From Microbacterium atlanticum (GTDB taxonomy: Bacteria; Actinomycetota; Actinomycetes; Actinomycetales; Microbacteriaceae): a stretch of 64,000 nucleotides of DNA. The stretch spans positions 3,038,001-3,102,000 of the forward strand of contig NZ_CP063813.1 in NCBI RefSeq assembly GCF_015277815.1, written 5' to 3'. Position numbers and translations under genes: made by a program. Positions 2,133-4,796 of this stretch are shown piece after piece; position 1 is the first letter of the stretch; each line of letters starts with the position of its first letter. The notes under the pieces are model-generated. The model did no database searches. It was not told where the DNA came from and saw nothing but the letters and a program-made list of their open reading frames with translations.

Positions 2133-2426
2133 TCAGGGGCGGGAGTGCAGGATGCCGCGGTGCGCGGGGTTCTCGTCGAACCAGTCGGCGACGTACCAGC
2201 AGACGGGCAGGACCTTCCGGTCCCCCGTCTCCTCGAGCTCCTTCACGGCTCTCCCGACCAGTTCGCCGGCGTAGCCGTGTCCGCGGAATGTCGGCACGGT
2301 GTATGCGCGGGTCATCGCCACCGTGCGCCCGTCGTCGCGGTAGTCCAGCACGCTGACGAGGTCGTCGCCGCGGTGCAGCGTGTAGCGCGAGGCATCCGTC
2401 TCTTTGGTGAAGCGCAGCTCGGTCAC
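2133..2426 (-). CDS. GNAT-fold N-acetyltransferase, short YjdJ/COG2388 type
   Basis: 97 residues match the short Gcn5-like acetyltransferase family: an RDDGRT beta region, the acetyl-CoA loop TFRGHGYAGELV (Q/RxxGxG/A pattern), then VCWYVADWFDENP near the C-terminus. These small enzymes are usually annotated only as putative acetyltransferases and the substrate is unknown. I place the start at GTG 2426, six bases after a TAGCCT -10 box (2433-2438), implying a leaderless transcript; a GTG two codons upstream would overlap the promoter. Confidence 0.85.
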   Translation of the reverse strand: MTELRFTKETDASRYTLHRGDDLVSVLDYRDDGRTVAMTRAYTVPTFRGHGYAGELVGRAVKELEETGDRKVLPVCWYVADWFDENPAHRGILHSRP

Positions 2427-2664
2427 CCGCACAGGCTACGCCGCGCCCGGACCGCACGCGTCCGCGCAGAGCGATGTCGCGGCATTCCTTGAGCGCACGT
2501 TGTGCCGGTCTTCAGGACCCACCGCCCGCAGGGCCGCGCCAGGCGCAGCTGCCGCAGGTCCCGCGGCTGCTGGGACTGAGCAATCTGTCACATTCCGTCA
2601 TGATCGGAGCCCCCGCATCCGTGCGATTTGACGTTTTTCGACAGACTCCGTCATAATCGGCCAC
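2427..2664. other. Intergenic region with a duplicated 14-base motif
   Basis: This 238-base stretch has no credible gene. It contains TCCGTCATGATCGG at 2594-2607 and TCCGTCATAATCGG at 2647-2660, identical at 13 of 14 positions and 53 bases apart. The second copy includes the -10 box of the leader peptide promoter; the first may be a second promoter or a regulator site. Confidence 0.5.
2628..2657 (+). promoter_or_regulatory. Promoter of the Cys-rich leader peptide
   Basis: TTGACG at 2628-2633, an 18-base spacer and CATAAT at 2652-2657 make a near-consensus housekeeping promoter, the clearest in the window. The expected transcription start, about seven bases after the -10 box, coincides with ATG 2665, so the leader peptide mRNA should be leaderless. 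Confidence 0.7.
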
Positions 2665-2766
2665 ATGACTGACAACGCGCTGTATCTGTCCGCCCGGGAG
2701 GCGAACAGGACTGCCGGCATGATGATGGCCGGCCGCATTGTCATGTGTTGTCGAATGTGCCACTAG
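2665..2766 (+). CDS. Leader peptide ending in MCCRMCH (candidate cysteine-sensing uORF)
   Basis: 33 codons from a leaderless ATG to TAG. The last seven residues are MCCRMCH, with two adjacent Cys codons written TGT TGT, unusual in a genome that strongly favours TGC. Cys-rich leaderless uORFs that act as cysteine-responsive attenuators are known from mycobacteria; the architecture here matches that idea, but no alignment was made. The peptide lies 230 bases before the winged-helix gene, and the intervening RNA can form several hairpins. Regulation by ribosome stalling at the Cys codons is inferred. Confidence 0.6.
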   Translation: MTDNALYLSAREANRTAGMMMAGRIVMCCRMCH

Positions 2767-2782
2767 CACGGTGACCCCCGCC

Positions 2783-2823
2783 GGACTCCTCCTCCGCTTC
2801 TGAAGACGGATCGCCAGGAGTCC
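2783..2823 (+). terminator. Hairpin after the leader peptide (attenuator candidate)
   Basis: GGACTCCT (2783-2790) pairs perfectly with AGGAGTCC (2816-2823). The loop holds a second stem, TCCG (2793-2796) with CGGA (2807-2810). It starts 16 bases after the leader stop codon, close enough for a ribosome stalled at the leader's end to affect it. No U-tract follows, so it may be a pause or Rho-related structure rather than an intrinsic terminator. Confidence 0.45.
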
Positions 2824-2954
2824 CCCGAAGCACCGGTTTCGTGCGTCGATCACGCGCACCCGGACCCGCTTCGCACACCGCCCAACGTCGGGCACAGGCC
2901 TCCATCGGCCGACGGCCTTTCTCGCCACCGACGACCAGGGCCGCAGCACATCCC

Positions 2955-2990
2955 ACCCGGCTCCGCGGCCGGGTTCCTCCCGCAAGGACC
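2955..2990 (+). promoter_or_regulatory. Mutually exclusive hairpins over the ribosome binding site of the winged-helix gene
   Basis: ACCCGGC (2955-2961) pairs with GCCGGGT (2968-2974). Alternatively GGTTCCT (2972-2978) can pair with AGGACC (2985-2990), sequestering the AAGGA ribosome binding site (2984-2988) of the gene starting at 2997. The two structures share bases 2972-2974 and cannot form together. This is compatible with translational control, but was read by eye and not folded. Confidence 0.4.
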
Positions 2991-2996
2991 ATCATC

Positions 2997-3737
2997 ATGT
3001 CGAACACCGCCCTCCTCGACCGCCCCGCCGCTCCCGTCCGCCACCTCCGCGCCGTCGACCGGACCGCCCGGATCGAGCCGCCCGCCGCGGCGCCGGAACC
3101 CGCGCAGCCGGCCCCCCGCGCCCTGCCCGCCGGCTCCGCGCCGCGCGGCTTCGCCCTCTACGTCGGGATCGACGAGGCCAAGGCCGCCGCCTCGGGGGTC
3201 AACCTCGGTGTCCTGGTCGACGCGCTCCGCCGCACCCTCGCCGACCTCGCGCCGTCCGCCGAGACCTATGCCACGGTCGCCCTCGCCCCGGTCGGTTCCG
3301 GCGGCCGCGACGTGGACGTGGTGCGCCTGGCGCTCCAGGAGCCGTCGGCGATCGCCCGCACCAAGCACGAGGAGCCGGAGGACGACGAGGTCACCGCCGG
3401 AGGAGTCGTCGTCGACATCTCCCGCAAGCGCGTGCTGATCGACGGCGAGTCGGCTGCGTTCACGTTCAAGGAGTTCGAGCTCCTCCAGTACCTCGTGCTG
3501 CGCGAGGGCCGCACCATCGAGCGCACCGAGCTCGTCAGCTCCCTGTGGCAGGGAACGTCCGACGAGGACGCCCCGGGCGAGCGCACGATCGACGTGCACG
3601 TGCGGCGCCTGCGCGCCAAGCTCGGGCGCTACGAGGACATCGTGCGCACGGTGCGCGGCGTCGGCTACCGCTTCGACCGTCACGCCGACGTCGTGATCCG
3701 CTACGGGCACGGCACCCCGTCGCCCGATCGCTTCTGA
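2997..3737 (+). CDS. OmpR/PhoB-type winged-helix DNA-binding protein without receiver domain
   Basis: 246 residues. Residues 1-45 are Pro/Ala-rich and probably disordered; about 48-115 form a small alpha/beta domain (FALYVGIDEAKAAA, TYATVALAPVG). The C-terminal about 100 residues are a trans_reg_C winged helix: FTFKEFELLQYLVLREGRTIERTELV, ERTIDVHVRRLRAKLG and VRTVRGVGYRF are diagnostic. The phospho-acceptor receiver domain of ordinary response regulators is absent. The ribosome binding site is AAGGA at 2984-2988. The gene follows the Cys-rich leader, so expression may depend on cysteine; a hairpin closes it at 3747-3770. Target genes are unknown. Confidence 0.85.
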   Translation: MSNTALLDRPAAPVRHLRAVDRTARIEPPAAAPEPAQPAPRALPAGSAPRGFALYVGIDEAKAAASGVNLGVLVDALRRTLADLAPSAETYATVALAPVGSGGRDVDVVRLALQEPSAIARTKHEEPEDDEVTAGGVVVDISRKRVLIDGESAAFTFKEFELLQYLVLREGRTIERTELVSSLWQGTSDEDAPGERTIDVHVRRLRAKLGRYEDIVRTVRGVGYRFDRHADVVIRYGHGTPSPDRF

Positions 3738-3746
3738 TGCCGCCGT

Positions 3747-3770
3747 CGGCCTCCGCGGTGTCGGAGGCCG
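3747..3770 (+). terminator. Intrinsic-type terminator hairpin
   Basis: CGGCCTCCG (3747-3755) and CGGAGGCCG (3762-3770) form a perfect nine-base stem with a six-base loop, ten bases after the winged-helix stop. No U-run follows, as is usual in this GC-rich genome. Confidence 0.6.
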
Positions 3771-3788
3771 GGGCGTAGGGTGGGCGGC

Positions 3789-4796
3789 ATGACGACGTCG
3801 CTCCCGCGCACCTCCCGGACGAGGGATGCCGCGCGGGGCACGACGCGCGCCGCCGATCGCGATCCGCGCCCCGACCACGGCCGGCCCATCGAGACGGAGT
3901 ACCGCCCGCGGCGGCCACTGGACCTGCGACGCACCGTGCTCGCTCAGCGACGCGGCGCGGCGGATCCGACGATGGCGGTCTCCGGGGCCGTGATCTGGTG
4001 GGCCAGCCGCACCCCGGAGGGCGTGGCGACCCTGGCCATCCGCGAGACGCATCCCGGCGTGGTGCGCGGCGCGGCGTGGGGTCCCGGCCGGGAGTGGGCG
4101 CTGGCGCAGCTGCCGGCGCTGTGCGGCGCCGACGACGACCCCACCGGGTTCGATGCGACGCGGCATCCGGTGATCGCCGACGCCCACCGCCGCAATCCGG
4201 GTCTGCGGCTGTCTCGCACGGGACTCGTCTTCGACGCTCTGGCCGGTGCGATCTTCGAGCAGAAGGTGACCGGCATGCAGGCCTTCGGCGCGTGGCGCCG
4301 CATCGTCACCTGGTGCGGGGAGCGCGCACCCGGCCCGACGCCTGTGCCGATGTTCGCGCCGCCCACGATCGAGGGCTGGCAGCACGTCCCGTCGTGGCTC
4401 TGGCACCGGGCGGGACTCGAGCCGCCCCAGTCGAAGGCCGTCGTGCGGGCCGCGCGGCGCGGCGACGCGATCGTGCGGGCCGTGCTGGCCGCCGACGACG
4501 GCGAGGCGGTCGACCGGGTCCTCGTCAGCCAGGCCGGGATCGGTCCGTGGACCTCGGCCGAGACCCGCATCCGCGCGCTCGGCGACCCCGATGCTGTCAG
4601 CGTGGGCGACTTCCACCTCGCACACGAGGTCGGCTACGCGCTGACGGGGCATCGCGTGGACGACGACGGGATGCTGCAGCTGCTGGCCGCGTGGCCGCGC
4701 CACCGCCAGCGCGTCGTCCGCCTCATCGGCGCGAGCGGCGTGCGCGAGCCGAGACGCGGCCCGCGGCTCCACCCCGAGGATCACCGCGGTCGCTGA
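3789..4796 (+). CDS. DNA-3-methyladenine glycosylase family (AlkA-like, HhH-GPD)
   Basis: 335 residues of the HhH-GPD superfamily, which excises alkylated bases in base excision repair. The N-terminal half is an AlkA-type beta domain. The helix-hairpin-helix is seen as GIGPWTSAETRIRALGDPDAVSVGDFHLAHEVG, where the Asp of VGDFHLA is the catalytic Asp position; an upstream helix reads LVFDALAGAIFEQKVTGMQA, the substrate-pocket region. A TAGGGT -10 box (3776-3781) and seven-base spacer lead straight into ATG 3789, so the mRNA is probably leaderless. The C-terminus is Arg/Pro-rich. Single gene unit. Confidence 0.88.
   Translation: MTTSLPRTSRTRDAARGTTRAADRDPRPDHGRPIETEYRPRRPLDLRRTVLAQRRGAADPTMAVSGAVIWWASRTPEGVATLAIRETHPGVVRGAAWGPGREWALAQLPALCGADDDPTGFDATRHPVIADAHRRNPGLRLSRTGLVFDALAGAIFEQKVTGMQAFGAWRRIVTWCGERAPGPTPVPMFAPPTIEGWQHVPSWLWHRAGLEPPQSKAVVRAARRGDAIVRAVLAADDGEAVDRVLVSQAGIGPWTSAETRIRALGDPDAVSVGDFHLAHEVGYALTGHRVDDDGMLQLLAAWPRHRQRVVRLIGASGVREPRRGPRLHPEDHRGR

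Follow-up and report, generated by a model that had tools for sequence, protein, structure and literature searches.

A conserved Met/Cys-codon leader, predicted to control translation of a GlnR-type and probably sulfur-linked regulator in Microbacteriaceae

The window, by which we mean the whole stretch of 64,000 nucleotides from Microbacterium atlanticum that was analysed, belongs to a complete genome of 3.71 Mb and harbors a short leader reading frame ahead of a gene for a winged-helix regulator (Table 1). The leader promoter is the only promoter-like site found between 2400 and 3850 (shuffled sequences: mean 0.0), and its -10 box lies 7 bases from the leader ATG at 2665; judged by promoter spacing, this fits a leaderless mRNA both in the window and in relatives. 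Among the 35 long reading frames of the window, TGT makes up a single one of 74 Cys codons. A near-consensus promoter, the 33-aa peptide with its MCCRMCH end, the rarity of TGT codons and a perfect 8-base stem had all been noticed in an earlier, sequence-only reading and are indeed present. Rfam returned sub-threshold snoRNA matches only, which were rejected. The one other site in the same genome that could encode CCRMC (3635495) lies inside another long reading frame and was taken as chance. The gene 3' of the regulator (3780-4796) gave no Pfam match below 0.1 as translated and resembles a DNA glycosylase by eye only.

Table 1. Leader, control elements and regulator gene in window coordinates
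Feature	Coordinates	Strand	Details
Putative operator	2586..2601	+	Two 10-bp-phased half-sites, GTCAC (2587-2591) and GTCAT (2597-2601); read in sequence
Promoter	2628..2657	+	TTGACG (2628-2633), 18-nt spacer, CATAAT (2652-2657); conserved in relatives
Further phased GAC/GTCAT half-sites	within 2628..2657	+	In promoter spacer and -10
Leader ORF, leaderless type	2665..2766	+	33 aa, ends MCCRMCH-TAG; peptide MTDNALYLSAREANRTAGMMMAGRIVMCCRMCH
Predicted anti-RBS strand in leader	2716..2736	+	GGC-ATG-ATG-ATG-GCC-GGC-CGC, codons G18 to R24; complementary to 2989-2999; fold-paired with 2965-2973; next-base covariation
Cys codon cluster	2746..2763	+	Cys28-Cys29-Arg30(CGA)-Met31-Cys32-His33; RBS-complementary in other lineages
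Local hairpin	2783..2823	+	Perfect 8-bp stem GGACTCCT/AGGAGTCC at 2783-2790/2816-2823
Predicted switching strand	2965..2973	+	GCGGCCGGG; partner of leader, or of local hairpin before SD, in folds
Shine-Dalgarno of regulator	2984..2988	+	AAGGA; read in sequence
Leader-complementary start region	2989..2999	+	CCATCATCATG, includes start codon; 11-nt complement of leader MMM codons
Regulator	2997..3737	+	246 aa; winged helix GlnR/PhoB-type (Trans_reg_C); PF00486, E=1e-20 (Pfam)

Pfam and alignments give the regulator a Pro/Ala-rich start, a conserved module at about positions 50-115 and then the winged helix. Trans_reg_C is its only Pfam match and no receiver domain with a phospho-acceptor Asp was found, which bears out the earlier description as receiver-less; a plain two-component response regulator was rejected as its identity on the same ground. 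The nearest solved structure to the winged helix is the DNA-binding domain of GlnR (8hig, E=1.2e-18; 44% identity), and the stretch RTxDVHVRRLRAKLG, which we take to be the recognition helix, is nearly identical between the two proteins. Direct GTnAC repeats are a further likeness. Unlike GlnR, the regulator shows no recognisable receiver-type N-terminus, its repeats recur every 10 bp instead of 11, its gene carries the Met/Cys leader, and a separate GlnR homologue is encoded in the same genome. The AlphaFold model (mean pLDDT 73.9) is good for the winged helix only and low at the N-terminus. The regulator is present in 147 of 150 Microbacteriaceae genomes, and an order-wide draw placed it in 42 of 248 genomes, belonging to the window's own family (f1), to f6, which is presumably Micrococcaceae, to f7 and, in one case, to f9.

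Leader conservation was examined at 138 loci of the window's family, drawn from 105 of the 147 regulator-bearing genomes and from other draws; one locus with the gene cut at a contig end (L024) was left out, and L036, one of the 138, is cut upstream. A script retained reading frames of 15-70 aa with a Cys motif near the end, the choice of start codon being uncertain in several. A matching leader was found at 127 of the 138 loci, 94 ending in CCRMC, 26 in CRM and seven otherwise Met/Cys-rich. As this filter is selective by design, the reverse strand and shuffled sequences were run as controls: among 137 loci, the true strand gave 127 leaders, the reverse strand 5 and shuffled sequence 3, and with TTGAC additionally required at promoter distance these numbers became 118, 0, and 0. 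Three loci carry diverged Met/Cys-rich reading frames that fall outside the filter (L132, L147, L148), and seven with upstream sequence have no leader (L070, L140, L144, L145, L151, L153, L157). In f6, eight of 15 loci have a different leader, most ending in CCRMHA or CCRMQA; none of the three loci in f7 yielded a leader, and the hit in f9 comes without a promoter. Across all families, CRM stands near the end of 127 of 136 leaders, its Arg being CGA in all 127, and CGA accounts for 70 of the 1237 Arg codons in the long reading frames of the window. An uninterrupted poly-Cys tract is absent, the window and most leaders having CC-R-M-C instead. The peptide end, whose conservation had been proposed as a check, is thus retained, and the 8-bp stem is kept only in part in an alignment read by eye. 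That the OmpR-type protein is preceded by a conserved leader with Cys codons is well supported.

The leader is also, at the level of sequence, complementary to the RBS of the gene that it precedes, as a translational attenuator would have it. Its MMM codons match CATCATCAT at the regulator RBS, at -8 in many Microbacterium and at about -20 to -28 in many other genera, with an 11-nt match in the window; in further lineages it is the Cys codons that match ATTCGACA at the SD, regulator starts being chosen by script. About half of the loci show one or the other complementarity. At both leader regions, exact 7-mer complements are more frequent than in shuffles (19/31 against 1.4 expected, 23/94 against 3.6, 16/94 against 2.0, and 7/8 against 0.5). 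Within the RBS window from -40 to +4, the longest leader complement averages 7.33 nt compared with 5.81 nt after shuffling and reaches at least 8 nt in 62 of 127 loci; the excess is weaker at -80 to -40, and none is seen at +4 to +44 or -120 to -80. Each RBS, moreover, fits its own leader better than do the RBSs of other loci (7.33 vs 6.84). CATCAT near the RBS together with in-frame ATGATG in the leader was found at 59 of 136 loci, CATCAT occurring in 19 of 1540 random windows. In the 20 of these rows outside Microbacterium in which both positions are C or G, the base that follows ATGATG and the one that precedes CATCAT form C-G 14 times, G-C four times, G-G twice, and C-C never (p=0.003, clade structure uncorrected), and over all 59 rows this position is C-G or G-C in 25, G-U in seven and unpaired in 27. 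A signal emerged only when exact complements were counted and the search was confined to the RBS window: RNAduplex of the leader Cys region against the whole UTR gave none (mean z -0.23, 133 loci).

Predicted folds agree with such a pairing. In the fold of the whole 5' region, the leader buries the regulator start codon (MFE -149.5, z -2.7) through a long-range structure that joins the leader ORF to 2965-2973 and 2989-2999. When the leader ORF is omitted, a local hairpin forms upstream of the SD, and the start region is free. Two alternative structures at the RBS, as had been described previously, are present in the folds; what had been missed is that the predicted partner of the RBS, the control strand, would be the leader's own codons. 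Ribosome stalls were modelled on the window, where the start codon has an unpaired probability of 0.00 with no ribosome or with one at Cys28, Cys29, Cys32, or the stop codon; the value is about 0.5 when a ribosome sits at Met20 or when others queue behind a Cys stall. In every state the SD is unpaired at 0.29-0.49, so that the start codon alone changes. Over 133 loci, a single stall at the first Cys raises the mean RBS opening energy from 6.24 to 7.34 kcal/mol, and a full queue lowers it to 5.24. Among 115 loci classed by pairing, a Met stall lowers the opening energy from 6.4 to 5.4 in the 49 with MMM-RBS pairing, where a Cys stall raises it, and a Cys stall lowers it from 7.6 to about 6.4 in the 13 with Cys-RBS pairing, where a Met stall does not, a split that arises because the loci were classed by that same complementarity. 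A control stall at codon 10 lowered the energy by at least 1 in six of these 13 loci, the same number as the first-Cys stall. One locus has both pairings, and the remaining 52, which lack a strong leader-RBS complement, change little on stalling; the effects in loci with pairing are small, about 1 kcal/mol.

Upstream of the leader, strict phased GTCAY pairs like the putative operator occur in 12 of 31 leader promoters of Microbacterium and in 6 of 96 others of the family, being absent from the remaining 90, and were found in 0/138 and 0/142 random flanks. A looser G[AT]CAY-N5/6 pair is present in 19 of 31 and 23 of 96 promoters, respectively (random flanks 1/135 and 1/136). The repeats keep to a recurrent register, and most overlap the core promoter, which suggests that the regulator may repress its own synthesis. 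L052 and L056 have a palindromic -10 region, GTGCAAGAAACTTGCAC, in their leader promoters; some relatives have similar sequences, and another factor may use it as an operator. A genome search with the regulator's own operator yielded one exact site and 17 with three mismatches (18 compared with 5 for the reversed pattern) and no sulfur neighbours, these being judged by eye and with no family search; a search for triple repeats took its place.

GTCAY-N5-GTCAY-N5-GTCAY, with at most one mismatch, was found at 34 sites in 13 genomes, 13 of them in one genome, against six for the reversed pattern. Thirty of these loci were fetched, 27 of them distinct, and at least one neighbour was Pfam-scanned for 24 (not for L237, L238, L247). 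Eight sites adjoin sulfur-type genes: metK, rhodanese, NlpA/MetQ, and sulfite reductase, plus suggestive ones, namely PALP with NMT1 and three luciferase-like monooxygenases. A control motif with N6 spacing gave 25 sites compared with seven reversed, five of them from one tandem array, and no sulfur gene among 18 scanned neighbours of 12 fetched loci. Since the control spacing also exceeds its reversed pattern, raw genome counts are no proof of the motif, and the argument from motif counts alone was rejected. The neighbour comparison stands at 8/27 vs 0/12 (p=0.036), and at a weak 4/27 vs 0/12 (p=0.21) when only the four clear sulfur genes are counted. A tandem array of 11-bp units, GTCACAGTGCG, was met at G003:C77:4032-4102 in the N6 search. 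Stronger evidence for a regulon than neighbour enrichment comes from a directed test of NlpA/MetQ-type loci, all of one genus: the strict pair is present at 13 of 30, and within the 108,730 bp covered it occurs 13 times, always in the upstream region. In seven of these 13, a -10-like box follows the repeats at 31-32 nt with no TTGAC between (one has TTGTC), so that these promoters look as expected of an activated promoter; one has the box at 29 nt, and the five of a second type lack it. Among 14 sulfite reductase promoters, GTNAC-N5-GTNAC is present in six, two of which have four phased copies, the N6 form in one, and neither in seven. Phased repeats like those of the regulator's own promoter precede metQ-type genes, some of the sulfite reductase genes and a single metK. 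The target of the leader, the regulator itself, is therefore probably sulfur-linked and a sulfur regulator, contrary to the sequence-only reading, which had called this target one not usually linked to sulfur metabolism.

We propose that the mRNA starts at or beside the leader ATG, as the promoter spacing implies, and that ribosomes would load there with no 5' UTR. While Met and Cys are plentiful, ribosomes would quit the leader fast, its codons would pair with the SD and start region, and translation of the regulator would be off, a step backed by the predicted fold and by comparison among loci. Once charged Met- or Cys-tRNA becomes scarce, ribosomes would stall and queue on the corresponding codons, freeing the RBS so that the regulator is made. 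The regulator would then bind the 10-bp-phased GTNAC/GTCAY repeats, a motif present at its own promoter and at sulfur uptake and assimilation genes. The RBS mechanism and the sulfur regulon are supported predictions, and the chain as a whole, from Met/Cys leader through translational attenuation and the GlnR-type regulator to the repeats at sulfur genes, is one that we modestly favor. In ermC-type translational attenuation, a ribosome stalled in a leader ORF frees the downstream RBS. The proposed device shares this principle, but its predicted signal is amino acid supply and its leader codons would themselves be the anti-RBS strand; unlike trp-type transcription attenuators, it has no intrinsic terminator before the regulator gene (none in 2400-3850). 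Cys uORFs of mycobacteria are reportedly the subject of work by Canestrari et al. in 2020. The excerpted text of PMC4633059 describes such leaderless, Cys-rich uORFs as conserved and upstream of cysA2, nirA, and Rv0485. Compared with that text, the present leader is likewise a short, conserved ORF, probably of leaderless type, with a Cys codon cluster near its end, but Met is equally prominent, CCRMC replaces a poly-Cys run, one peptide pattern recurs family-wide, and the target is a GlnR-type regulator. The leader is a real, conserved attenuator-like feature, which gives a new form to a device of known kind. No recognised description of the Microbacteriaceae leader or regulator was found among open-licence papers.

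Were the Cys codons alone to sense supply, with MMM kept solely for base-pairing to the RBS, one would understand why CCRMC or CRM is the best conserved part of the leader; as Met is encoded by a single codon, pairing could be enough to fix it, and in the model the start codon opens when ribosomes queue behind a Cys stall. Of the 127 family leaders, however, 117 contain an internal MM, and of the 64 without CATCAT near the RBS 58 do; pairing with the RBS is therefore not by itself a sufficient explanation for it. Averaged over 124 leaders, there are 4.5 internal Met and 3.0 Cys in every 32 aa, and some very diverged leaders keep Met/Cys composition and little else (SMCMCMCMCR, CPMCMCM, MMMCCSMM). 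In some small genomes the leader is reduced to little but Met and Cys, as in MMPCSMCMCMCMCR (L155), other small genomes being among the seven loci with no leader. In L093, the MMP part is expanded into repeated LMMPV units, a natural length variant of the Met block. From the Met/Cys content and the retention of MM, the sensor is read as Met plus Cys, and the stall modelling speaks against a simple Cys-only switch in the window. The cysteine-supply attenuation proposed earlier therefore stands in its conserved Cys-codon leader but is qualified by the equal prominence of Met, by the predicted pairing of MMM, and not of the Cys codons, with the RBS in the window and by a lone Cys stall that leaves the start codon closed in the model; a Cys-only sensor we consider unlikely. 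That the nascent chain (LTSxEAxGxAGMMM...CCRMC) arrests the ribosome on a redox, metal, or other signal, independent of hungry codons, seems very unlikely to us: residues of its N-terminal half are conserved too and CGA-ATG could slow decoding, but some diverged leaders drop these residues and retain only Met/Cys richness, and where Cys codons match the RBS, CGA could be accounted for by RNA pairing.

Control could alternatively act on transcription, by Rho or a non-canonical terminator, and not on the RBS. C-rich stretches of the 5' region, read by eye, are possible Rho loading sites; set against the missing intrinsic terminator and a leader complementarity that is strongest at the RBS, this appears quite unlikely. 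Concerning the targets, the repeats at sulfur genes could belong to GlnR or another factor, the regulator controlling something else. Its winged helix is closest to that of GlnR, whose homologue in the genome could bind such sites, and GlnR boxes are GTnAC repeats in the excerpted texts of PMC10704036 and PMC3087709. These texts give the box as GTnAC-n6-GTnAC/GaAAC, however, and n5 spacing dominates in the three promoter sets, where the repeat period peaks at 10; the same n5 repeats also mark the regulator's own promoter. We hold this assignment to be rather unlikely and retain the regulator itself as the probable owner of the repeats.

Only 14 of 150 Microbacteriaceae genomes yielded an orthologue of the sulfite reductase at L194:967-2691 (E at most 1e-100), and most members of the family may therefore depend on sulfur in reduced or organic form. 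The broadest form of our proposal, held tentatively and with somewhat less confidence than doubt, is that a family-wide Met plus Cys sensor, with leader codons as the RBS-blocking strand, switches on a previously undescribed sulfur master regulator, a GlnR-type DNA-binding domain joined to a new N-terminal domain, in Microbacteriaceae, most of which seem to have no assimilatory sulfite reductase and would depend on salvage. If true, the attenuator would be very compact, hungry codon and anti-RBS strand being one sequence, and its code would be directly testable: lineages with an RBS paired to Met codons should have a switch that responds to Met, and those with an RBS paired to Cys codons one that responds to Cys. 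The Microbacteriaceae would thereby gain a candidate sulfur regulator, its operator and its sensor both predicted.
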